In this document: positions 1 to 18,489 of the stretch, piece by piece | How positions within the stretch are numbered: position 1 is the first letter of the stretch | How the letters are laid out: each line of letters begins with the position of its first letter | Source of the DNA: Deltaproteobacteria bacterium RBG_13_61_14 | GTDB taxonomy: Bacteria > RBG-13-61-14 | Reading direction: 5' to 3' | DNA: 23,286 nucleotides | Assembly (NCBI GenBank): GCA_001797815.1 | Contig: MGQK01000106.1 | Coordinates: 74,242 to 97,527 of the forward strand | Made by a program: the position numbers and the translations under genes | Notes under the pieces: model-generated | The model's input: only the letters and a program-made list of their open reading frames with translations | The model's database searches: none | What the model was told of the DNA's origin: nothing

Positions 1-743
1 CATGCCAGCGGGAACCGGGTGGAAGTGAACAGGCCGCCCTCTGGATCGGTAAACACCAGGCGTTGGACCAACTCCTCGCCGAACTCCTTGTGGGAGGTGA
101 ATTCCGTAACCGCCAGCGCATGATCCTTGCCGAAAAACCAGAACACCCGCCAGCGCAAGGGAGTATGAATCGGATTCAGCACCTGGCTGTCGTGGTTCAG
201 AGTGCCATACCCGTCCAGGCGGTACTCCCGGCCCTCGATCACGGCCTCGACCTGCGCCCTGGCCCAGGGAATGGGCAGGTAATAGCAGCTAAAACTCTTG
301 CCGTCGGGATACCGAACCATCCCGTCGCCGTAACCGTAACCCGGACCCAGAAGATCGAAAGCAATCTTCGCTTGGACTTCCCCCAGCTTCAGGTCTATGG
401 AATACCGGCGGCCCTCCAGCCGGAACCGGCTCGGCCCGATGCTGAACCCAAACCCCTCCTGATCAAACGCGACCCGGTTGTATTTGGTGATTTGATATTC
501 CCGGAAGGCATTGGTCCCCGGCTTGCCCAGAACGAAGATCACGGTAGCATCATTGGGGTTGAAACTCACCAAAACCGTGATCATGGTTCCGTCCGGGAAA
601 TTCAAATGGTGGTAGTAGTACTCGGTCCAGAAGATCCCCGGCCATTGCCGGTGTTGAAACAGATCAAGATTTATCCCCCCGGGCTGGGTCACCGGGCCGT
701 TGACCTGTTCCGGGAAAACACTCCACTGCTCAGTATGCTTCAT
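1..743 (-). CDS. AttH/CrtC/Svf1-like lipocalin-type protein (partial, C-terminus off window)
   Basis: This is an open minus-strand frame from an ATG at 743 to the left edge, about 247 residues with no stop. GGGGAGGAT lies about 6 nt before the ATG, a good ribosome binding site. The protein has no signal peptide and is rich in beta-type alternation. It contains a Gly/Tyr-rich turn (GYGYGDGMVRYPDG), then YYLPIPWARAQVE, then GYGTLNHDSQV and LRWRVFWFFG. That order (substrate-like strand, 'YYLPIP', then a G-x-G-x-x-x-H-D motif) resembles the AttH/hydroxyneurosporene-dehydratase (CrtC)/Svf1 superfamily, which has two lipocalin-like barrels. Members bind or hydrate hydrophobic molecules; the substrate here is unknown. 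It is the last visible gene of the leftward methyltransferase operon, 131 bp downstream of the pseudogene. The family call is by motif impression only. Confidence 0.6.
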   Translation of the reverse strand, partial: MKHTEQWSVFPEQVNGPVTQPGGINLDLFQHRQWPGIFWTEYYYHHLNFPDGTMITVLVSFNPNDATVIFVLGKPGTNAFREYQITKYNRVAFDQEGFGFSIGPSRFRLEGRRYSIDLKLGEVQAKIAFDLLGPGYGYGDGMVRYPDGKSFSCYYLPIPWARAQVEAVIEGREYRLDGYGTLNHDSQVLNPIHTPLRWRVFWFFGKDHALAVTEFTSHKEFGEELVQRLVFTDPEGGLFTSTRFPLA

Positions 744-874
744 CGTTGATCCTCCCCGTCAATGCCGTGGATACGCGCCGCCTTTATCCGCCGTCCCGTC
801 CGACCACGCCTGGGCAAAGCCGGAAGCCTGGACGAGAAGGGAAGCCCTCCGAATGGAGTCCCCGATCCTTCCCG

Positions 875-1393
875 TCATGAATGCTCCTTGTTCCATTTCC
901 TGGTTTCGTCAATCATGGCGAAGTAGTTTCAATCTTGCAGAAGTTCGTAACCGAGTTGCCTGAGCCCATTGACGAAACCTCCGCCCGGCCACTCGAAGTC
1001 TTCCCGCGTCGAGACGATGCCCTTGCCCTCCTCCTGCCCGGCCAGAATTAAGCCCTGCTGCCGCGGGTTGCCTCGCAACTGCGGAGGCGTGCGGGGAATC
1101 GGGACCCGGGGCGCCATGGACACGCCGTCGTATCCCATTGGGATGGAAAAGGCGATCACCCTCTCCATGAGCTTGCAGCCGAGCTGCCATTGCGCCAAGG
1201 TCGGATTCAGCCCCACGTTGACGATTTCGCTCACCCGGTCCGCCGGGAAGTCGAAATCCAGGATCTCGCAGGCGATCTCGGCGTCCACCAACCCCTCGAA
1301 GATCGGAACCGGTCCCGCTTGGGTCTGGCGCGTGAGCCCCTTCAGCAGGTGTTCGAAATTTGCCCCTGGCTGGAAGGGTCCGCCGATTTTCAT
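875..1393 (-). pseudogene. Deleted, frameshifted MtaA/URO-D-type methyltransferase remnant
   Basis: The start ATG at 1393 follows GGAGG and opens MKIGGPFQPGANF, matching the starts of the two neighbouring homologs (MKIGQPFKKN, MRIERPFQKK). The N-terminal ~140 residues align with the paralog at 4584-5705 (GPVPIFEGLVDAEIACEIL). After STREDFEWP the frame jumps to the C-terminal GGGF motif, so about 190 residues are missing, including the zinc-ligand HxC region. One extra base near 970 and one missing A near 930 then break the frame, and the apparent reading frame stops at about 911. Restoring both indels recovers the family C-terminus (SGNSVTNFCKIE...ETRKWN) up to a stop at 875. The remnant therefore looks non-functional, though a truncated N-terminal polypeptide of about 155 residues could still be made. 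Confidence 0.85.
880..967 (-). repeat. Near-identical 3'-end segment shared with the intact paralog (copy 1)
   Basis: About 88 bp covering the last codons of the methyltransferase pseudogene match 2311-2399, the same part of an intact paralog, with two substitutions and one single-base deletion. The rest of the two genes is clearly diverged, and the third close paralog differs much more in this stretch. Confidence 0.8.
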
Positions 1394-1464
1394 GCGTTGC
1401 GCCTCCATCAATCAATTACAATTCCCCTTGGCTCCATCTCCCCAGAGACCTGGAAGGCTTCTCG

Positions 1465-2223
1465 CTATAACTTCAAGATCGTTTCCTTGGCCAACTCCCG
1501 ATAGAGCTTGTTCTCGGGGATGGCTTCGGGGAGGGCGTCATCGGGCTGGCTTATGCAGAACTGGTATTCCTTCCGGGCCTCCGCTTTCTTGCCGGCCACC
1601 TCGTAGCTGACGCCCAGGAAGAAGCGGCTGCGGAGGTATCTCGGTTCCAAGGCGACGGCGCGCTGGTAGAGCCAGACCGCGTCGTCGTTCGAGAAGTGGA
1701 AAAACCTGCCCAGGAGATTGGGAAGCGTGTTGATCACGATGGCCCAGTAGCAATAAACCCCGCCATATTGGTACCCGATGTCGCTCTTGGCCACCATGAT
1801 CGTGGCCACCAGCGCCTCCTTGAAGGCGAACCCGGAAAAAACGCCCCGGGCCAGGGTCCGGCCGGCCATGTCCCACATCAGCCAGTAATTGGCCTCCGGA
1901 TCGTCCTCATTCTGGGCGAGTATCTCCTTGCAGGCCTTGATCCCCTTGTCCATGATCTGGACCACTTTGTCATTGCCCATCTTCGGGTCCTGCTCAAAGG
2001 CCCAGGAAGCGGCCTGGGCCAGGCGGATGCGGACCGCCTTGTCCGCCGGGTTCTTGGCCGCCAATTGCTCATAGAGCTGGATCGCGAGCAAAGTCTGGGC
2101 CGGGGTTTCCCGGGCGGCCCAGGCGGCATCGGCCCTGGTCCGGAGATCGTCCGCGGACCGGCCGGAAAAAGGAACCATAAAAAAAACCAATGCCCAACTC
2201 CATCGTAAAATCGGTTTTCGCAT
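1465..2223 (-). CDS. TatT-like (TRAP transporter T-component) exported helical-repeat protein
   Basis: The ATG at 2223 is chosen because AAGGAG lies 5-6 nt upstream and the protein then begins with a clean signal peptide (MRKPILRWSWALVFFMVPFS, likely cut near SGRSA/DD). That gives 252 residues. The mature part is alpha-helical with TPR-like spacing: an early repeat (LAIQLYEQLAAKNP), then a central YWLMWDMAGRTLARGVFSG segment, then AVWLYQRAVALEPRYLRSRF and AGKKAEARKEYQFC. This layout resembles the TatT family, periplasmic TPR proteins that work with TRAP solute transporters. No TRAP subunits are visible, so a transport role is not shown. The gene sits between two methyltransferase genes (84 and 71 bp gaps) and is probably co-transcribed. 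It could instead be a generic TPR protein. Confidence 0.55.
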   Translation of the reverse strand: MRKPILRWSWALVFFMVPFSGRSADDLRTRADAAWAARETPAQTLLAIQLYEQLAAKNPADKAVRIRLAQAASWAFEQDPKMGNDKVVQIMDKGIKACKEILAQNEDDPEANYWLMWDMAGRTLARGVFSGFAFKEALVATIMVAKSDIGYQYGGVYCYWAIVINTLPNLLGRFFHFSNDDAVWLYQRAVALEPRYLRSRFFLGVSYEVAGKKAEARKEYQFCISQPDDALPEAIPENKLYRELAKETILKL

Positions 2224-2307
2224 CACGGTCTCCTTGCATTCCCCGCGCATACGCCGCGCCTCTCCAAACAATTACCATTCCCTCCCGCTCATCGTTTCCG
2301 CGCACAT

Positions 2308-3441
2308 TTAATGCTCCTCGTTCCATTTCCGGGTTTCGTCAATCATGGCGAAGTAGTTTTCAATCTTGCAGAAGTTCGTAACCGAGTTGCCTGAGCCCAT
2401 GCAAAAGCCTCCCCCGGGCGCGCAGGCTTCCAGGATCTGGCGGGCCCTTTTCCGAACCTGCGCCTCGGTGCCGCGGGCCAGGAGGTCCACCTCCAGCCCG
2501 CCCAGGATGGAAATCCGGTTGCCGTACTTCCGGTAGGTTTCCTCCACCGGCTCGATGTTGTCCTGGAAGCTGTGCTTGCCGTCAATTCCCACGACCTCGA
2601 TCAAATCTTCCATCAGAGCGTCAATCTGGCCGCAGCCGTGAAACAGGAAGGGCTTATGGTGTTTGTGGCAGGCGTCGGCAATGCGCTTGTGCCGGGGGAT
2701 GACCCATTCCTTGAGCAGCTTGGGCGAGATCATGGTCCGGTTGTTGAAGGCCATGTCGTCGGCATAAAAAATTGCGCCGGTGGCCGGGTGGGCCGCGGTC
2801 TTGTCCACCAGGTCTTCGGTCAGCACGGTGAGCCGCTCGAGGATATCCTCGACCAGGTCGGGCTGCTCGATGGTTGCGAAAGCCATGCCCTCGAAGCTCA
2901 TCACCGCCCGGAGGTCCTCGAAGATGCCCACGATCAGGGCCATGAGCTTGGCACCAGGGGGCAGCCGGTCGGCCATGAACTGGATGGGCAGGATGTTCAC
3001 CATATTTTTCGAGGGCCAGGGGAAGGCCTGGAACTGCTCCCGGTTGGTGATCAAACCCTGGTGCTCCTCCTGCCAGCCGCGCGGCCGAGAGTCTTTCTTG
3101 ACCTCGTGCTCGAGCCGCGCCGCGGTGCGGTGAATGGGGCGGGGAATGGGGACGATGGGCAGCGTGGTCACATAGTCGTAGCGGGTCGCCGCGGTAAAGG
3201 CCCGGCTCAGCTCCATCAGGTGCAGACCCACCCGCAGGGCTTCGGGGGTGGGATTGGTGAGCAGTTCCGGAATCAGTTCGAGCCCGCCGGCGGGAAAATC
3301 GTAGCCGCTGATCTCGATCATGAGCTCCGGGTCCACCGCAAACTCCAAGAGAGGCACAGGGCCATCCGTAGTCTCGCGCATGACCACCTTGCGGAGATGA
3401 TCAAAATCAGATTTTTTCTGAAATGGGCGTTCAATCCTCAT
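2308..3441 (-). CDS. MtaA/CmuA-type corrinoid methyltransferase (URO-D fold), paralog C
   Basis: A 377-residue protein of the uroporphyrinogen-decarboxylase superfamily, in the branch that transfers methyl groups to or from corrinoid proteins or thiol acceptors. The ATG at 3441 is preferred over an upstream alternative because it aligns with the starts of its paralogs; AGGGA lies upstream. Visible family marks are a His-x-Cys at H268/C270 (FLFHGCGQ) and a further Cys at C340 just before PGGGF and the Gly/Ser-rich MGSGNSV. Together they form the H-x-C...C set that binds catalytic zinc in MtaA-like enzymes. It is 17 bp downstream of the previous gene, so it is in the same operon. Its closest visible relative is the gene at 4584-5705, with a nearly identical C-terminal tail (KIENYFAM.DETRKWNEEH). 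The substrate is unknown, and no corrinoid protein gene is in view. Confidence 0.88.
   Translation of the reverse strand: MRIERPFQKKSDFDHLRKVVMRETTDGPVPLLEFAVDPELMIEISGYDFPAGGLELIPELLTNPTPEALRVGLHLMELSRAFTAATRYDYVTTLPIVPIPRPIHRTAARLEHEVKKDSRPRGWQEEHQGLITNREQFQAFPWPSKNMVNILPIQFMADRLPPGAKLMALIVGIFEDLRAVMSFEGMAFATIEQPDLVEDILERLTVLTEDLVDKTAAHPATGAIFYADDMAFNNRTMISPKLLKEWVIPRHKRIADACHKHHKPFLFHGCGQIDALMEDLIEVVGIDGKHSFQDNIEPVEETYRKYGNRISILGGLEVDLLARGTEAQVRKRARQILEACAPGGGFCMGSGNSVTNFCKIENYFAMIDETRKWNEEH
2311..2399 (-). repeat. Near-identical 3'-end segment shared with the pseudogene (copy 2)
   Basis: This is the donor-like intact version of the 3'-end block also found at 880-967. It encodes the region from GSGNSVTNFCKIE to the C-terminus of the intact paralog. 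Confidence 0.8.
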
Positions 3442-3458
3442 TAACAAATCTTCTTCCC

Positions 3459-4583
3459 TCACTTGCCCAGGGGAAAAGCCCCGCACTCCCGGACTACCTC
3501 GGTTATCGCTTCAAGCTTTTCCCAGGTGGTGTTTTTCGGCACCGCGTCATTAGACCCCAGGGCCATGCGCCGCCCGTCGCCCATGTTCCGGAGCACCTCC
3601 CGCGTGTACTCCTTCAGGGCCGCGGGCTCTTTTCCGGCGAAGGCCGTGGCGTCAATCCCGCCCATGATGAATTTGTCCGGTCCCCACAGCCTGCGGGCGG
3701 TGGCCAGGTCGGGAAGACTCCCGGTGGGAGGCGTGGCCACGTCCACCAGTCCGTCCAGGGTCAGGTCGCCGATGGCCTCTCCGAACTCGAACAGGTGTCC
3801 GCAGGCGTGATTCAGGAAAATCTTATCGGTCTGGTGCAGGATCTCGGCATATTCCCGGTACCAGCGGGGCGCGTATTTTTCCCAGATTTTGGGGGAGCAC
3901 AGGGTCGAGGACAGGTTTTCGTACTGGATTATCACCGGGGCCTTGCCCTCGGCGCAGGCCTGGCAGATTCTTTTTACCATCCCATGCATGGCCTCGAACA
4001 GTTCCTCCATCACCTCGGTATGGTCGAAATAGAGGTACCAGAAAGTGTCAATATCGACTTCCCCGTTGAGCAGCGTGAGCATGGGTGTCCCGGGAATGGA
4101 GATGGTGGAGATGCCGTCGTCGCCGATCCGCTTCTCCGCCAGGTCGAACATGTAAGGCACGGGCACCACCTCGGCCTGCTCGTACATCCAGGTTAGGATT
4201 TTAACGTCCTCGATGTTCCTGACGCGGCGCCGGGTGGTCCAGGGAATATTGGGAGACTCGGGGTTAAGCCTCAAACGCTCGGTCAAAGTCCCCACCGGGG
4301 TCTCGTAAATGACCTCGGTCTCGTCTCCGATTTTACTTTGTTTCTTGGACCAGAGCATCTTTTTGCCGGGCACCGTCGAGGTGAGATAATACGGCAGGCT
4401 CCCGATGTAGTTGACGATGTGCCGGAGCATGGCGTCGGCCCCGATCCGGCGAAAGCCCTCCACCTGGTCCACGCCGCCTAAAAAGTACCCGTCAATGCAG
4501 GGCGACCACGGAATGCGGTCCACGTCCCGGCCCCGGAGGGCGGCCATGATCCTTTCCCGGCTACTCATGGTTTCTGTAGACAT
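3459..4583 (-). CDS. URO-D-fold methyltransferase-like protein, divergent paralog B lacking the third zinc-ligand Cys
   Basis: A 374-residue protein. Its ATG at 4583 directly abuts the upstream gene's TAA, with GAGGAG about 10 nt before it, so translation is probably coupled. It begins MSTETMSSRERIMAALRGRDVDRIPW, the classic URO-D-superfamily opening (R-E-R...AL.G...DR.P). It keeps the His-x-Cys motif at H259/C261 (FLNHACGH) and a DATPPTG-like substrate loop. Where its two neighbours have CAPGGG plus MGSGNSV, this one has GDGRRMALGSNDAVP with no Cys. The usual third zinc ligand is therefore absent or replaced. This protein may handle a different methyl substrate or act as the partner half of a two-protein methyltransferase system. 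The family call is strong; the specificity is not known. Confidence 0.85.
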   Translation of the reverse strand: MSTETMSSRERIMAALRGRDVDRIPWSPCIDGYFLGGVDQVEGFRRIGADAMLRHIVNYIGSLPYYLTSTVPGKKMLWSKKQSKIGDETEVIYETPVGTLTERLRLNPESPNIPWTTRRRVRNIEDVKILTWMYEQAEVVPVPYMFDLAEKRIGDDGISTISIPGTPMLTLLNGEVDIDTFWYLYFDHTEVMEELFEAMHGMVKRICQACAEGKAPVIIQYENLSSTLCSPKIWEKYAPRWYREYAEILHQTDKIFLNHACGHLFEFGEAIGDLTLDGLVDVATPPTGSLPDLATARRLWGPDKFIMGGIDATAFAGKEPAALKEYTREVLRNMGDGRRMALGSNDAVPKNTTWEKLEAITEVVRECGAFPLGK

Positions 4584-5705
4584 TTAATGCTCCTCATTCC
4601 ACTTCCTGGTCTCGTCGAGCATGGCGAAGTAATTCTCGATCTTACAGAAGTTGGTCACCGAGTTGCCCGAGCCCATTATAAAACCCCCGCCGGGAGCGCA
4701 GACATCGAGTATCTCCCGAGTCCGTTTGCGGACCTGCTCCTCAGTACCACGCGCGAGCAGGTCCACGTCCACACCGCCTATGATCGAGATGTGGTCACCG
4801 TACTTGCGATACACCTCCTCGACCGGCTCGATGTTGTCCTGAAAGGAATGCCTGCCGTCAATTCCGACCGTCTCGATCAGATCCTCCATGATGGCTTCGA
4901 TCTGGCCGCAGGAATGAAAGAGGAAGGGCTTGCGGTGACGATGAGCCGCGTCGGCCATGCGCTGGTAGCGGGATATGAGGTTTTCCCGGATCCAGGTCGG
5001 CGACATCATGGTGCCGTGGTTGAATCCCAGGTCATCTGCATACGCAATGGCGCCCACTGCCTTGTGGGCCGCACACTTTTCCACCGCGGCTTCAGCAATT
5101 TCAATAAGCTTGTCTAGGATGTCGCTTACCAGGTCCGGCTCCTCGACGCTCTTGATCGCCATCTGCTCGAACCCAAGCAGGCATCGCAGGTCCTCGAAGA
5201 TGCCTATTACGAAAGCGATCACCTTCATGCTCTTGGGGATTCGCCAGTAGGCGTAATTGATGCTGAACATGTTGATCTGCTTGGGCGACGGCCAGGGGAA
5301 TTGCTCGAAATCCTTTCGGCTGCGGATCAGTCCTTCATGCTCATCCTGCCAGGCGCGGACCAGGTCCCCCTGTTGAGGGTTCTTCATGAGATGCATGGCG
5401 GTCCGGGGCAACAGAATGATTGGGGTCATGATCACGTAGTCGTATCCCATCCCTTTATAAAAGTTCACCGCCATTTTCATCAGCTTGTACCCATACCACA
5501 TCTGCTCCAGGGTCGGCCTCGGACCGGGCTTGGTGAACTCGGCAATCCGGTCCACAGGAAAGTCGAGGCCGAGGATCGCGCAGGCGATCTCCGCGTCCAC
5601 GACCCCCTCGAAGATCGGGACCGGCCCATCCTTGGTCCGACGCATGAGCACATCCGCCATATGCTCGAAATCGTGGTTCTTTTTAAAAGGCTGCCCAATC
5701 TTCAT
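4584..5705 (-). CDS. MtaA/CmuA-type corrinoid methyltransferase (URO-D fold), paralog A, first gene of operon
   Basis: A 373-residue protein. The ATG at 5705 is preceded by AAAGGA about 8-10 nt upstream. It carries the zinc-binding H264/C266 (FLFHSCGQ) and C336 (DVCAPGGGF), followed by MGSGNSVTNFC. These are known in MtaA/MtbA-like enzymes to bind Zn2+ and activate a thiol or methyl acceptor. It is about one gene-duplication step from the 2308-3441 protein: many blocks are shared (SFQDNIEPVEE.YRKYG, DLLARGTE.QVRKR). It heads the leftward operon, about 60 nt downstream of a TTGACA/TATATA promoter. A soluble cytoplasmic enzyme is expected. The methylated substrate cannot be read from the sequence. 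Confidence 0.88.
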   Translation of the reverse strand: MKIGQPFKKNHDFEHMADVLMRRTKDGPVPIFEGVVDAEIACAILGLDFPVDRIAEFTKPGPRPTLEQMWYGYKLMKMAVNFYKGMGYDYVIMTPIILLPRTAMHLMKNPQQGDLVRAWQDEHEGLIRSRKDFEQFPWPSPKQINMFSINYAYWRIPKSMKVIAFVIGIFEDLRCLLGFEQMAIKSVEEPDLVSDILDKLIEIAEAAVEKCAAHKAVGAIAYADDLGFNHGTMMSPTWIRENLISRYQRMADAAHRHRKPFLFHSCGQIEAIMEDLIETVGIDGRHSFQDNIEPVEEVYRKYGDHISIIGGVDVDLLARGTEEQVRKRTREILDVCAPGGGFIMGSGNSVTNFCKIENYFAMLDETRKWNEEH

Positions 5706-7252: not shown

Positions 7253-8064
7253 TTCTTATCAACGGTTGATAAGGGGCTGGCCTATTGCCTGTCCGTCCTG
7301 GGGATCTTCACTGACAAGCATGAGGCAAAGAAAAAAGGGGGGCTTTCCTGGTGGCAACTCTTATGGAACGGCTCGGAGAACCCCGAAATCATCCGGGCCG
7401 CGAAAAGGTTGGGGGTCCAATGCTCGAGCATTTACTCGGCCAGGGAATCCTCGGCCAAGTGGGTGCTTCGGAGGTTGAAAGCGCACCTCGTGAAGGGGAT
7501 GCCGGCCATGCTCAGGGTTGATGAAGGGGAGCATTGGGTGGCGGCGCTGGGCTACGGCCAGGATAAAAAGAAGTTCATCATCGCCAACCCCCTGTGGGAG
7601 AGCGTCACCGATTTCTATTCCGGGGATCATCTGGTCCAGAGCCTCTATCCCCCGGCTTTCGACATTATCCTGCTCAAGCCCGGCAGGAAGGGAGAGGCCA
7701 TGAATGTGGACAAGGAGTTTCTGCGGCTGGTTACCCGGGGATCTGAGGCGGAGGAAGATATTGAAACGATCCGGGCACCCTGGACGCCATTTTCGGACTG
7801 CCTTTGCAACGGAAGGCCAAGGATGCCGTCCCGGCTTACAAGTTCATCGAGAAGCACGAAGACCTCTTGGTGGATGCGGCCTGGGACTGGAGCGCTGAGC
7901 AAAAGACTTCCAAAGCCGAACTCCGCCGCCTGCTCCGGGACTATGCGATTGTGGCCCGGTGCTCGGGGCACAAGCTGGCGGCCAAGGACAAAGAAAAAGC
8001 CCTGGTCGAGCTGAGCGCCATTGTCACCATCCTGCTTAATCAGGGGACTTTGGTGGTGGAATGA
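7253..8064 (+). pseudogene. Frameshifted C39-peptidase-like gene remnant
   Basis: Two frames join into one protein-like sequence. The first is open from 7253 (after an in-frame TAA) and reads DKGLAYCLSVLGIFTDKHEA, then NPEIIRAAKRLGVQ, then KGMPAMLRVDEGEHWVAALG and FIIANPLWESVTDFYSG. The GEHWVAALGY and IANPL blocks fit the catalytic His and Asn/Asp regions of C39-like bacteriocin-processing peptidases. The Cys-Gly that should start the domain is not seen; DKG stands at that place. A single-base loss near 7770-7785 moves coding to the frame ending at 8064 (LDAIFGLPLQRKAKDAVPAYKF ... LLNQGTLVVE). No ATG or GTG start fits the N-terminus. A sequencing error or a split gene cannot be excluded, but a dead gene is most likely. 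Confidence 0.6.
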
Positions 8065-13758: not shown

Positions 13759-14766
13759 TTATTCTGGCACCTGATGGAGAGATTTAGCGGTTTCCGAATT
13801 AACCAGAGACACTGGCACTTTGATCACAGCGGGAACCTTGTCCCCTTGAACCAGTTTGACCGCCGTTTCAACTCCGGCGCGACCCATTTGATAAGGATTT
13901 TGAGTAACCGTCGCGGCCAGATCGCCGAGGGCGAGCGCATTCATCGCTTCCCGATTGCCGTCAAAGCCGACAATGACCATCTCCTTTAACCGGCCCGCGT
14001 TCTTGGCCGCGAGCAAAGCGCCCAGCGCCATGTTGTCGTTCTGGCAAAAGACCGCGTCAATTTTTGCTTCAGCCTGCAAAATGTTCTCCATCACGGTCAT
14101 GCCCTTGTCCTTCATCGAGTCGGCCGGCTGCTCGGCCACCACGGCGATGCCCTTCTCCGCCATCACGTCCTTGAAGCCCTGACCGCGCTTCTGGGCATTG
14201 GCCGCGCCCAACTGGCACTGGATGTGGACCACTTTTCCCTGCGGCCCGACCTTTTCAGCGATAAACTCGCCCGCGAGCCTTCCACCCTGGTAGTTGTCCG
14301 AAATAATCAGCGCGGCGATCTTGCCCCCGGCCGCTCCGATGTCCACGACCACCACCGGCACGCCCTTGTCATTGCAGCGCTTCACCGCGGGCACAATAGC
14401 TTCCGAGTCCTGCGGCGTGATCAGCATCACCGCCACGCCCTTCTGCAACAGGTCCTCCACGTCTGCCACCTGCTTGGCCACGTCCGCATTGGCGTTGGCC
14501 TGGAGCAAAGTGATCCCTTGCTCCTTGGCCGCATCTTCAATGCCTTGCTTCATGGTCACAAAGAACTCGTTGTTGAGCGAGCTTACGGACCAACCGAGGA
14601 TGATCGTCTCTCTGGGCGCGGGCGCTCCCGGGGCCGGCGCTTCAGGAACCGGCCGGGAGCAATGAAGGAAAAGAAGCGAAAGCCCCCAAACCGCTAACTG
14701 AGAACTGAAGCTCTGACCCCTTATTCCCTTATTCCGAAATGAAGGTGGCGTAGGATGGTTAATCAA
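13759..14766 (-). CDS. Ribose-type ABC importer periplasmic binding protein (RbsB-like), abnormal 5' end
   Basis: Periplasmic type-1 sugar-binding protein of the RbsB family. The mature part starts near ETIILGWSVSSLNNEFFVTMKQGIEDAAKEQG and continues with QVADVEDLLQKGVAVMLITPQDSEA, PVVVVDIGAAGG, FCQNDNMALGALLAA and IVGFDGNREAMNAL. These are the standard family blocks. A hydrophobic leader ending in LLFLHCSRP looks like a lipoprotein or export signal, although the His before Cys is atypical. The only in-frame start is a TTG at 14766 without a clear ribosome binding site, and codons 4-11 lie inside one arm of a 22-bp inverted repeat. The original start may therefore have been lost or replaced. 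The matching permease is 2.3 kb upstream at 17080-18045; no ATPase gene is present. Confidence 0.85.
   Translation of the reverse strand: MINHPTPPSFRNKGIRGQSFSSQLAVWGLSLLFLHCSRPVPEAPAPGAPAPRETIILGWSVSSLNNEFFVTMKQGIEDAAKEQGITLLQANANADVAKQVADVEDLLQKGVAVMLITPQDSEAIVPAVKRCNDKGVPVVVVDIGAAGGKIAALIISDNYQGGRLAGEFIAEKVGPQGKVVHIQCQLGAANAQKRGQGFKDVMAEKGIAVVAEQPADSMKDKGMTVMENILQAEAKIDAVFCQNDNMALGALLAAKNAGRLKEMVIVGFDGNREAMNALALGDLAATVTQNPYQMGRAGVETAVKLVQGDKVPAVIKVPVSLVNSETAKSLHQVPE
14736..14757. repeat. Left arm of a perfect 22-bp inverted repeat
   Basis: The core is GAAATGAAGGTGGCG followed by TAGGATG. Its exact reverse complement occurs at 16276-16297. The arm overlaps the extreme 5' end of the RbsB-like gene. 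The pair encloses the AT-richer two-gene islet. Confidence 0.9.
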
Positions 14767-14914
14767 TTGAGCCGCCGATCAATTTCAATTATGAGGGGGA
14801 CAACCTCCCTCCTCCCTTTCCCCTTTAGTGAACACTTGATGTTTTTTGCTAATCACGGCGGTAAAAAGTTCTAAAGTTCAGTATGTCTAATGTCAACTAA
14901 TAAATAAGTAAGGG

Positions 14915-15568
14915 TTATTCGAAAAAACAAACCAGGTATGCTCGAAGAACTTTCACTTTCTTTGGGTCGTAAGGACCCTGCCAATCTATGTTGACTCCAG
15001 TAAACCCTTTTCCCTGGAGCAACGCATTGTAAACTCGCTTCCCTGGCTCAGCGTTAAATTTTTTTTCCACCGCCTGTTGGGGACCGCCTAAAGCCGAGAT
15101 ATCTAATTTGGCCTCCTCGTTGTGGGCTAGGTTGGTTTCCAGGTCTATTTTGATTTTCATTATGGATGAAGGCTCGCAAACATCATGTGGTATTTGGATG
15201 TTGAAAATTTGATAGCTTTGAGGAGGCGGTTCAACTCTCTTTATCTCAATAGCTCGCACCTCCAAGGTTATCATCGTGGTTCCGATCCAGAACAGCAGCC
15301 CCACGACTCCGCAGATGAAGGACAAAACGACATGAATTATCTCCATAACCCTAATCTTGTAGATAAAGATTGCTAACGCGGTTGTTTCAAGGAGAATGCT
15401 AATGATTTTAAAAAAATTGTAAAGGGGGCTCACGTAGGCTAGTAAGATGGGCCCCCAATACAGCTTTGTAAGAGATAGCGCGGCATACGCGACGATCAGC
15501 GCCGCCGCCCAAACCAGAAGTTTCGCTAGGACGTATTTAAGACCGGGCCGTTCTTCATTGTTCGACAA
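14915..15568 (-). CDS. Unrecognised membrane protein, three N-terminal helices plus soluble C-terminal domain
   Basis: The frame is open further upstream, but the likely start is TTG at 15568: GGAGG lies 6 nt before it, overlapping the upstream gene's end by 14 nt. That gives 217 residues. Three hydrophobic segments are visible (YVLAKLLVWAAALIVAYAAL; NFFKIISILLETTALAIFIY; IIHVVLSFICGVVGLLFWIG). A soluble domain of about 100 residues follows, with two Cys (DVCEPS and LVCFFE) and the pattern YNALLQGKGFTGVNIDWQGPYD. No family is recognised. It is coupled to the 15555-16181 gene, so the two products may interact at the membrane. Base composition is lower in GC than the surrounding genes, suggesting acquisition. 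Confidence 0.6.
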   Translation of the reverse strand: MSNNEERPGLKYVLAKLLVWAAALIVAYAALSLTKLYWGPILLAYVSPLYNFFKIISILLETTALAIFIYKIRVMEIIHVVLSFICGVVGLLFWIGTTMITLEVRAIEIKRVEPPPQSYQIFNIQIPHDVCEPSSIMKIKIDLETNLAHNEEAKLDISALGGPQQAVEKKFNAEPGKRVYNALLQGKGFTGVNIDWQGPYDPKKVKVLRAYLVCFFE

Positions 15569-16181
15569 TGGTCGCCTCCGCGGTGATGTCAATGACCTTG
15601 AGGATCCAGTGGCCGGCATTGGGGCAGAAAATTGCGACTTTATAATCCTTGCCCAACTCGACGCCCGCAAAGAGGCCTTCGTAAGTAAAAATAGTTTTAC
15701 ATGGCAGCTTGTTCACCTCGATTAAAATCTGGTCGACCGGTTTGTCGGAGGCATCCACCAACTTGGCGATCAACTTCGCCGAAGCTTGAGCGCAGGTATC
15801 CGCGTGATTATCGGCTTTGATAACAATTCTGATGTCGACTTTGGGATTGGAGCAGTTTTTCTGTGGCTTGATAGTGAATGCATCCGAAGTCCAAAACGGA
15901 TCTTTTTCTGATTGAGGCAGGCAATCCTGACTGGCGGGTATTCCTGTTTGTTCGCAATCGGCGCGACACTTCTCAGTCGAAGTCGCTTGCGAGCAAATAT
16001 TTTTGGGTGCAGCAAGAACCACGGGTAGGCTCCTGGTTTCGGAGCATCTTTTAGCGGGCTGTGGCTGTTCTTCGCTTTTTTTAGAGCATTTTGTTAAGGC
16101 AAAAAACAGTCCGCCAATAACTACAAGCGCAACTATTATAGCCACGACCTCTTTGCTTACAGATTGACCTTTCTCTTTCAT
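15555..16181 (-). CDS. Unrecognised Cys-rich protein with N-terminal membrane anchor
   Basis: The ATG at 16181 has AAGGGAG about 9-11 nt upstream, giving 208 residues. A short basic start (MKEKGQSVSKE) and one hydrophobic helix (VVAIIVALVVIGGLFFALT) make it a type II-like anchored protein, or one with an uncleaved signal. The outer part has about a dozen Cys, several in spaced pairs (KCRADCEQTG, QDCLPQ, NCSNP, DTCAQ, LPCKT, FCPN), consistent with disulfides outside the cytoplasm. The C-terminal half looks beta-rich (FTYEGLFAGVELGKDYKVAIFC). No homolog family is recognised. Translation overlaps the following membrane-protein gene. Confidence 0.65.
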   Translation of the reverse strand: MKEKGQSVSKEVVAIIVALVVIGGLFFALTKCSKKSEEQPQPAKRCSETRSLPVVLAAPKNICSQATSTEKCRADCEQTGIPASQDCLPQSEKDPFWTSDAFTIKPQKNCSNPKVDIRIVIKADNHADTCAQASAKLIAKLVDASDKPVDQILIEVNKLPCKTIFTYEGLFAGVELGKDYKVAIFCPNAGHWILKVIDITAEATIVEQ

Positions 16182-16251
16182 TGTCGTCTGCTCCCTTCTT
16201 TGTCAAGTTTTTTGATGAGATTGTTCCGCCTCTAGTTGAAATTGACAGGCG

Positions 16252-16269
16252 GCCCGTTTGGCCCGTTTG
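16252..16269. repeat. Tandem 9-bp direct repeat
   Basis: GCCCGTTTG occurs twice head to tail, ending 6 bp before the right arm of the 22-bp inverted repeat. Confidence 0.75.
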
Positions 16270-16275
16270 GTAACT

Positions 16276-16297
16276 CATCCTACGCCACCTTCATTTC
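16276..16297. repeat. Right arm of a perfect 22-bp inverted repeat
   Basis: CATCCTACGCCACC followed by TTCATTTC is the exact reverse complement of 14736-14757. It lies in the intergenic region upstream of the Cys-rich protein gene. Confidence 0.9.
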
Positions 16298-16396
16298 AGA
16301 GTCAAGATTTTTCGTCAGCAAACTAATTCCTACTCAAGTCAAATTCCCTCGCTTAAGATGTAGGCCGCGAGACTGTGCTGTTCATTCTGCTTTCCC

Positions 16397-16621
16397 TTAA
16401 GCCGCAAAGCGAATGATCTCCACCTCGGCGCCGTTTTTGACCGCTTGTTCGGCGCGTTCCAGGAGCTTTTGGGTCATGCTCTCGGAGAAGTAAGGCTCGC
16501 CGCAATTTTCGCAAACCTCGGCGGGGACACCTTTAATCACCACCGTGCTTTCTGCTCGCTGGAGCACAAAGGTGGTTTCTTGCGGGAGGGTTTCACCTTG
16601 CTTGCAAATCACGCATTTCAT
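16397..16621 (-). CDS. YgiT-type zinc-finger protein (MqsA-like antitoxin candidate)
   Basis: A 74-residue protein with two CxxC pairs (C3/C6 in MKCVICKQ and C37/C40 in EVCENCGEPYF). This is the YgiT/MqsA N-terminal zinc-finger pattern, ending with ESMTQKLLERAEQA. Such short proteins are usually encoded next to DUF4258 or MqsR-like toxins and neutralise them. Its ATG overlaps the preceding gene's TGA by 4 nt, so the two are translated together. The MqsA helix-turn-helix half is missing, so self-repression would need another factor. Confidence 0.8.
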   Translation of the reverse strand: MKCVICKQGETLPQETTFVLQRAESTVVIKGVPAEVCENCGEPYFSESMTQKLLERAEQAVKNGAEVEIIRFAA

Positions 16622-16908
16622 CTTGCTCTCCTTTTTCGAAAGTGCTCATCCCAGAGATGAAGATCCGGCGGATACACGGTGATGACGTAGCAGGTTTGAT
16701 TTTGTTTTTCCAGGGCCGCCACGACATGAAGCGCCTGGCCTCTGACCCATCCCAGTAACAAAAAACTGGGAAAAGGAACGTCGTCCGGATATTCTTCAAT
16801 CAGCTCCCCTCGTTTCAGCACTTCCACCACGTCTTCTTTGGAGATTTTTCTCTCAAACATTCGTTTGACCGCATGCCCGGTGAAAATGATCCGTGAGCAG
16901 TCCATCAC
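16618..16908 (-). CDS. DUF4258-family protein (RelE/MqsR-like toxin candidate)
   Basis: A 96-residue protein starting at a GTG (16908) or the adjacent ATG (16905); AAAGG lies about 10 nt before the GTG. It has IIFTGHAVKRMFERKISKEDVVEVLKRGELIEEYPDD and then LHVVAALEKQNQTCYVITVYPPD. This H-A-x-x-R-M-x-x-R-x-I pattern is typical of DUF4258 proteins. They are paired with YgiT-type partners and are suspected mRNA-interfering toxins. Toxin-first order with a 4-nt overlap matches that arrangement. Activity is not demonstrated. Confidence 0.8.
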   Translation of the reverse strand: MMDCSRIIFTGHAVKRMFERKISKEDVVEVLKRGELIEEYPDDVPFPSFLLLGWVRGQALHVVAALEKQNQTCYVITVYPPDLHLWDEHFRKRRAR

Positions 16909-17052
16909 TCGGTTCTGCCTTTCAACTTACCCTGGATATGACCTTATCAGAGCTACCCTCCATTGTAAAGGGCATTTTCAATTGCCCCGTAACCGAAGCG
17001 CGGTCGCGGCTACCTTGACTTTCGGGGTGCTACCGTCGGTTTGGCTTTCGGG

Positions 17053-17079: not shown

Positions 17080-18045
17080 TCACGATTCCGGCTTTCGTTG
17101 CAATTGATAATCGAGCAGGACCACGGCGATGACCACGGCGCCGATCACCACCTCCTGCCAGAACGGGTCCACCCCGAAGAGGTTCAAACAGTTCTGGATC
17201 ATACCATAGATGAGCACGCCCAGCAAAGTGCCGAGGACCGAGCCTTGGCCGCCCATCAGGGAGGTTCCGCCGATCACCACCGCGGCGATGGCGTTGAGTT
17301 CGTAGCCCAGGCCGAGGAGCGCGTTGGCGCTTTGCAGGCGGGAGGTGAGGAGCACGCCGGCGAGCCCGGCCAGCACTCCGCTCAGGGCATACACGGTAGT
17401 TTTGACGGCGAAGACGTTGACGCCGGAGAGCCGGGCCGCTTTTTCGTTCGAGCCGACGGCATAGACCAGCCGGCCGAAGCGGGTATAGCGGAGCGCGACC
17501 CCGGCGCCGGCGAACACGAGCAGGACGATCGCGACCGGAAGAAGCCCCTGGCCGAGGAGGTGAAAGGCCTCGGGCTGCTCCGAGAAGGTCATGCCCCGGG
17601 TGATGACGCGGGTGAGGCCGCGGGCCACGGCCATCAGGCCGAGGGTGGCGACAAAGGGCGGCAGGCGGAAGCGGGCGATGAGGAGTCCGTTGGCGAGGCC
17701 GCAAAGGAGGCCGGTGAGGAGGCCGGCAAGGATTGCGATAATTATCACTAATTCGGGAATCCATCGGCCTTCCAGGAGGCGGGCCATCACCAAGCCCAAG
17801 ACCACGCTGGCGAGGGCGAGCACCGAGCCGACCGAGAGGTCAATGCCGGCGGTGAGGATGACGAAGGTGGAGCCGATGGCCAGGAGCGCGATGGCCATGT
17901 TCTGGTTGAGGATGTTCTGGAAATTATTCCAGGAGAAAAACTTGGACCCGAGCGTCAGGCTGAGGACCGCGAAGAACAGGATGAAAACGAAAAAGGCGCC
18001 GAACTCCCGCGCCCGGACCTTTCCGGCGTTAGGCCTGATGTCCAA
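17080..18045 (-). CDS. Ribose-type ABC importer permease (RbsC-like)
   Basis: Inner-membrane permease of the RbsC/BPD_transp_2 family. It has about eight or more hydrophobic segments and the family signature LTAGIDLSVGSVLALASVVLG, followed by GLANGLLIARFRLPPFVATLG, YAVGSNEKAARLSG, AIAAVVIGGTSLMGGQGS and VLIYGMIQNCLNL. The TTG at 18045 is preferred because GGGGAG precedes it by 7 nt; the frame also opens from a TTG at 18060. That gives 321 residues. It lies only about 31 bp after the hicA stop, so it may ride on the HicBA transcript. Its substrate-binding protein is probably 13759-14766, now separated from it by accessory genes. The ATP-binding subunit is not in the window. Confidence 0.88.
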   Translation of the reverse strand: MDIRPNAGKVRAREFGAFFVFILFFAVLSLTLGSKFFSWNNFQNILNQNMAIALLAIGSTFVILTAGIDLSVGSVLALASVVLGLVMARLLEGRWIPELVIIIAILAGLLTGLLCGLANGLLIARFRLPPFVATLGLMAVARGLTRVITRGMTFSEQPEAFHLLGQGLLPVAIVLLVFAGAGVALRYTRFGRLVYAVGSNEKAARLSGVNVFAVKTTVYALSGVLAGLAGVLLTSRLQSANALLGLGYELNAIAAVVIGGTSLMGGQGSVLGTLLGVLIYGMIQNCLNLFGVDPFWQEVVIGAVVIAVVLLDYQLQRKPES

Positions 18046-18076
18046 TGTCCAACTCCCCAATCTTCGCTTGCCTATT

Positions 18077-18289
18077 CTAGAGCAGCTTCTTGAACTCCTC
18101 CGGGCTCAAACCCGCGTCCCTGGCGATGGCGCCCCTGGTAAAAGCGTTGATGGGGTTATGCCGGGGAAGGGTAAGACGAATGATGCCGTCAGACATGATG
18201 ATGTGTTTACCTTGCCGGATCATCCGGAAGCCGACTTTTTCGAGAGCCTTGACCGCTTGTTCCGGGTTGACGCCGGGAATCTTGGGCAT
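18077..18289 (-). CDS. hicA: HicA-type mRNA interferase toxin
   Basis: A 70-residue protein (MPKIPGVNPEQAVKALEKVG). It has the HicA/YcfA layout: a short basic RNA-binding fold with GFRMIRQGKHIIMSDG carrying the conserved catalytic-type His, then RLTLPRHNPINAFTRGAIARDAGLSPEEF. HicA cleaves mRNA and is held inactive by HicB. The start follows the hicB stop by 2 nt, so translation is coupled. Confidence 0.9.
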   Translation of the reverse strand: MPKIPGVNPEQAVKALEKVGFRMIRQGKHIIMSDGIIRLTLPRHNPINAFTRGAIARDAGLSPEEFKKLL

Positions 18290-18291
18290 GG

Positions 18292-18489
18292 TCAGACGCG
18301 GACGAATTCCTCGGTGATTGCGAAGGTCCGGGCTTCCGCGGCTTCCGCTTCCAGCCACTCCTGGATGGCGATTTTGATGTTTTCCAGGGCTTGCTCCCGG
18401 GTTTGGCCCTGGGAATGACAGCCCCGCAAGGCCGGGCAACTAACCGCGAAACCTTCTTCGCTCTCGATTAGAATAATTCGATAATCCAT
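18292..18489 (-). CDS. hicB: HicB-type antitoxin
   Basis: A 65-residue protein starting MDYRIILIESEEGFAVSCPALRGCHSQGQTREQAL and continuing NIKIAIQEWLEAE, the standard partially degraded RNase H-like HicB fold. AGGGA lies about 7 nt before the ATG. It lacks the C-terminal DNA-binding helix-turn-helix or ribbon found in longer HicB proteins. It lies first, before hicA. Confidence 0.9.
   Translation of the reverse strand: MDYRIILIESEEGFAVSCPALRGCHSQGQTREQALENIKIAIQEWLEAEAAEARTFAITEEFVRV

Follow-up and report, generated by a model that had tools for sequence, protein, structure and literature searches.

A perfect inverted repeat in the genome of Deltaproteobacteria bacterium RBG_13_61_14 encloses two genes of low GC content, and one of its arms reaches into a gene for a sugar-binding lipoprotein. 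The locus raises the question of what these arms are: the ends of a segment that flips or jumps, or copies of something else that happen to face each other. The window, that is, the whole stretch of DNA analyzed here, spans 23,286 nt of contig MGQK01000106.1 (positions 74,242 to 97,527), and all coordinates below refer to it unless a contig is named.

The inverted repeat and the genes between its arms

The sequence GAAATGAAGGTGGCGTAGGATG lies at 14736-14757 on the forward strand and again at 16276-16297 on the reverse strand, an exact repeat search recovering the two halves as a perfect 22-bp inverted repeat, the longest exact one within 3 kb in the window. The original prediction held that such a match across 1.5 kb is not expected by chance, and this was borne out, since in 60 first-order shuffles the longest inverted repeat had a mean length of 13.6 bp and a maximum of 17 bp. 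Beyond the exact arms, imperfect similarity of both ends extends over about 84 nt, as seen by repeat detection and by the profile match described below.

Between the arms lie two credible, overlapping open reading frames, both on the reverse strand and both with ribosome-binding sites. P2 (15555-16181, 208 amino acids), the first gene of the islet operon, encodes an N-terminal membrane anchor followed by a Cys-rich outer domain, and its ATG stands shortly behind the leader of the right arm, after AGAAGGGAGCAGACGACA, which provides a good Shine-Dalgarno (SD) sequence. P1 (14915-15568, 217 amino acids) encodes transmembrane helices and a C-terminal beta-rich domain. Since its TTG start (15568) lies inside the end of P2, after GGAGGCGACCA with the SD sequence GGAGG, P2 and P1 appear to form an operon with linked translation. 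Neither protein yielded a family match above the cut-off. No relative of P2 was found in its own genome, in plasmids, or in viral contigs, and none of P1 in viral contigs; alignment-free structure models were of low confidence, with pLDDT values of 51 (P2) and 62 (P1). The islet had thus been described correctly as a pair of overlapping, unrecognized membrane-protein genes. Their low GC content was also confirmed (47.8% for P2 and 45.8% for P1 versus 59 to 61% in the surroundings), but the right arm does not bound it, for the low-GC zone continues beyond that arm to about position 17000.

Seven copies of a promoter-like module

When the islet DNA was compared with the whole genome, further matches to the arms only were found on contigs C99, C109, and C81. 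A first profile, based on sequence only and built from these and the two arms (five copies), added copies on C82 and C66, and the profile was then rebuilt from all seven. On its own genome the seven-copy profile detected exactly seven copies, with E values of 1e-16 to 1e-22, and no match besides these seven appeared when it was run on the known loci together with about 380 kb of background from the own genome. The right arm is an intact copy (16218-16315, reverse strand; R2 match of 76.9 bits, E 2.8e-22), and the left arm is a degenerate copy in the opposite orientation (14723-14806, forward strand; R2 match of 71.0 bits, E 1.9e-20, without the first 6 model positions). The same profile gave no match in two genomes of the same order and at best E 0.001 in 38 other genomes. 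An exact-pattern scan of genome contigs returned 3 matches, all in unrelated genomes and close to the roughly 2 estimated by hand for chance; pattern or BLAST searches found no copy in viral contigs or in phages, in a plasmid collection the only matches were chance ones of 26 nt within a repB gene, and an Rfam search on four module loci gave nothing but one chance match.

The module is about 90 nt long and consists of an A-rich stretch, TTGAC or TTGAT, a 17- to 18-nt spacer GGAARTGAAGGTNGCG, TAGGAT, and a leader with the conserved block CAATTTCAACT. Homology stops abruptly on both sides, and around the five places outside the islet no further sequence common to all was found besides the module itself. 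Every copy except the left arm carries TTGAC, TTGAT, or TTGAA behind the A-tract and 17 to 18 nt from a TAGGAT-type box, which reads GAGGAT on C81. The module therefore reads as a predicted sigma-70-type promoter plus leader. In the right arm, a consensus scan picked TTGACT-17-TAGGAT at 16305-16277 on the reverse strand, with the −35 hexamer TTGACT at 16300-16305 and the −10 hexamer TAGGAT at 16277-16282; the exact 22-bp halves correspond to the spacer plus this −10 core. The islet promoter agrees with the consensus at 9 of 12 positions, and matches of this kind exceed chance no more than mildly in the region, where the scan found 4 versus 2.1 expected. The leader of this copy also contains a 9-nt tandem duplication, CAAACGGGC, that is missing in its closest relative.

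Five of the seven copies are solitary, and four of these five are followed by a ribosome-binding site and a start codon about 70 to 95 nt downstream of the −10 box; behind the fifth, on C109, the next good open reading frame begins only about 270 nt downstream. The genes behind the module are a lipoprotein gene with Big_5 and Ice_binding domains, a 487-amino-acid gene without a Pfam match, two orphans, a PMT_2-like gene, and P2-P1, so that a homologous intergenic sequence stands in seven copies in one genome, ahead of non-homologous genes. The lipoprotein behind the C99 copy (locus L065, module at 7970-8059, reverse strand) carries three Big_5 domains besides the Ice_binding domain.

The copies differ from one another by 11 to 50% and are hence not recent, and exact runs of 18 to 19 bp also link copies on different contigs, so the 22-bp identity needs no special cause; it probably represents the slowest-changing core of the module. 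Furthermore, the right arm shares 89% identity with the C99 copy versus 69% with the left arm, and so the arms do not form a pair of matching ends. The ends of one element should resemble each other most, and these values argue against an invertible or transposing unit.

Inversion had been one of the proposals for this islet. If the 22-bp arms recombined, 14736-16297 would be turned around as an ON/OFF switch, a crossover in the spacer replacing the TTGACT of P2-P1, which lies outside the right arm, by CTTATT and so turning the operon off. The exact arms do face each other, and the geometry would indeed exchange the −35 box. However, the arms have not been homogenized over their length, the core is also kept in the five solitary copies, which lack a second arm for inversion, and no recombinase or transposase was found among the genes of the window. 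We consider such a switch very improbable, and the prediction of an invertible segment gained no support.

Another proposal, a non-autonomous, MITE-like element using the module as terminal inverted repeats, would account for AT-rich cargo between inverted arms in a stretch inserted between rbsC and rbsB. Yet the other five copies stand alone, most of them directly before genes, and paired ends do not recur at several loci. The outer ends of the arms are unlike, the −35 part being missing on the left. As predicted, no transposase lies inside the islet, and no target-site duplication was found at the arms, apart from 7 matching bp whose offsets are unrelated; nor does the module have terminal repeats, a target duplication, or a transposase tied to it. 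A cargo transposon thus fared no better than inversion, and we give it hardly any credence.

Taken together, these data make us fairly confident that both arms belong to a set of seven paralogous copies of a dispersed promoter-leader module of about 90 nt, the right one probably working and the left one decayed, and that the family is a lineage-specific kind of "mobile" promoter that would drive accessory genes. By this account, RNA polymerase would recognize TTGACT and TAGGAT of the right arm and start near 16270, and a leader of about 90 nt, then P2 and P1, would be transcribed leftwards. The left arm would be a decayed copy that points away and probably has no role in the islet, and the inverted-repeat geometry would be a by-product of two opposite copies lying about 1.5 kb apart. 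The original prediction had allowed for a dispersed motif unconnected with the islet; the repeat is indeed dispersed, in seven copies, but it is not unlinked, one copy being the predicted promoter of the islet.

The conserved spacer and leader exceed the needs of a bare promoter, and a further binding site or an RNA function may be involved. One possible, though in our judgment doubtful, explanation treats the module as the cis-acting regulatory RNA leader of a true regulon, a hairpin with the conserved loop CAAUUUCAACU, the likeness of its copies being due to selection on common regulation and not to recent spread. The conservation of the leader nearly equals that of the promoter, and a hairpin around the loop can be drawn with differing stems, GCCUCU/AGAGGC in the C99 copy as compared with CUUUUU/AGGAAG in C109 and a stem in C82. 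The controls are mildly favorable, with 76% of cells paired versus 40 to 60% in slid versions. However, the covariation is not decisive, its count being reached in 32 of 500 shuffles; some copies lack a good stem, Rfam offers no match, and the downstream genes have no common function. The RNA reading does not exclude the dispersed promoter family and is compatible with it.

We also considered whether a small gene or upstream open reading frame begins with the conserved block, with an ATG overlapping the −10 box and the peptide MxYQTGRLSISTRGxTIS. AAGGTGG resembles an SD sequence, five copies keep the frame open, and in the C82 copy its stop codon shares bases with the start codon that follows. 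But in two copies the frame runs for no more than 7 and 4 codons, and transcription is predicted to start downstream of its ATG. This candidate, scarcely credible on these grounds, was rejected, since differences are spread evenly over codon positions (56/55/64) and 87 codon differences are non-synonymous versus 18 synonymous.

The probable insertion and the 5' end of rbsB

The surroundings of the islet belong to an rbs-type operon. In homologous operons, the homologues of the rbsC-like permease gene (17080-18060, reverse strand) stand directly beside the binding-protein gene. Because rbsC and rbsB adjoin in several of these operons (e.g., L096, L099, and L100), and about 2.3 kb separates them here, the comparison suggests that this DNA, comprising the islet and a toxin-antitoxin-like pair, was probably inserted between them. 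The binding proteins of the nearest compared genomes, which belong to the same order, are only about 31% identical. The pair (16397-16908, reverse strand) consists of a DUF4258 gene (E 8.7e-26) and an MqsA-like zinc finger gene, whose MqsA_antitoxin match (E 6.3e-6) is below the curated cut-off. A HicA toxin gene lies at 18077-18439 (HicA_toxin, E 2.3e-7), so toxin-antitoxin-like genes flank rbsC on both sides. At the far left of the window (1-5705) are three adjacent URO-D (methyltransferase-like) genes and, at 909-1411, part of a fourth. The 3' end of this fragment is a near match to the copy at 2310-2400, and the fragment looks like a truncated duplicate.

Of the readings first proposed for the islet, that of an accessory cassette is the one that holds, the rbsC-rbsB neighborhood of homologous operons being interrupted here by the insert. 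For the six modules that have a gene behind them, the GC contents of these genes are 47.8, 58.3, 50.2, 34.5, 42.3, and 55.0%, with a mean of 48.0% versus 61.4 ± 6.5% in 242 background open reading frames (p 0.0005 for random draws of six), and in four cases GC falls at the module. Since the genes behind it are GC-poor and GC falls where it stands, we infer that the module accompanies accessory, probably foreign genes. It probably spread ahead of incoming accessory genes by duplication or recombination, as promoter re-use. We find it unlikely, albeit conceivable, that the module is a lineage-specific expression adaptor, copied before newly acquired GC-poor genes and placing them under common control via the spacer and a hairpin in the RNA whose loop is conserved.

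On the opposite side of the islet, the left arm reads CTTATT at the −35 position, and it is not directly followed by a gene that has its own start. It adjoins a second dispersed repeat, of the REP/RAYT type (14695-14734), whose tag GGGGTCAGAGCTTC (14707-14720, reverse strand) codes for some of the N-terminal residues of the rbsB open reading frame. This tag has 25 exact copies in the genome versus 0 for a reversed control, with inverted pairs 45 nt apart on C33 and C53 and copies to either side of a Y1_Tnp (RAYT-type) gene on C68, one of 19 Y1_Tnp genes in the genome; its many copies, inverted pairs, and Y1_Tnp association assign it to the REP/RAYT type. The rbsB-like gene itself (13759-14766, reverse strand) matches Peripla_BP_4 (E 1.3e-64) and the RbsB model (E 1e-77, yet below the cut-off), and its product retains the lipobox LFLHC, but its 5' end is truncated or replaced. 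As anticipated, its sole start is TTG 14766, without a ribosome-binding site. The first 25 or so codons from this TTG are left-arm and REP-like sequence, and therefore the native start has been lost; the arm had been credited alone with this replacement, which the REP-type repeat and the left module copy in fact make together.

Implications and comparison with known systems

The locus illustrates that copies of one promoter can be mistaken for terminal inverted repeats, and the picture of a flipping or jumping islet gives way to a simpler one. If the module truly spreads to incoming genes, it would offer a small, countable system for how foreign genes gain a promoter.

Invertons are phase-variable invertible promoters. 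Like them, the arms are inverted repeats, about 22 bp long, and one edge carries a predicted promoter, but they differ in the absence of a nearby invertase, in arms that are not homogenized, and in the occurrence of the repeat as five single copies. With REP/REPIN sequences and their RAYTs (PMC3116915, PMC2817692), the locus shares short dispersed repeats, the REP-like GGGGTCAGAGCTTC family with its Y1_Tnp genes even adjoining the left arm; unlike them, the module is unpaired elsewhere, has only 7 copies, and has no Y1_Tnp neighbor at the inspected copies. Mobile promoters and promoter propagation have been described by Matus-Garcia et al. (2012) and van Passel et al. (2014), as cited in PMC8049555 and PMC9208149. 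From putative mobile promoters as outlined in those citing texts, the module departs in that its copies are 11 to 50% apart and in that a structured leader may belong to the unit. The likeness is that homologous, promoter-bearing intergenic repeats stand before unrelated genes in one genome and carry no transposase of their own.
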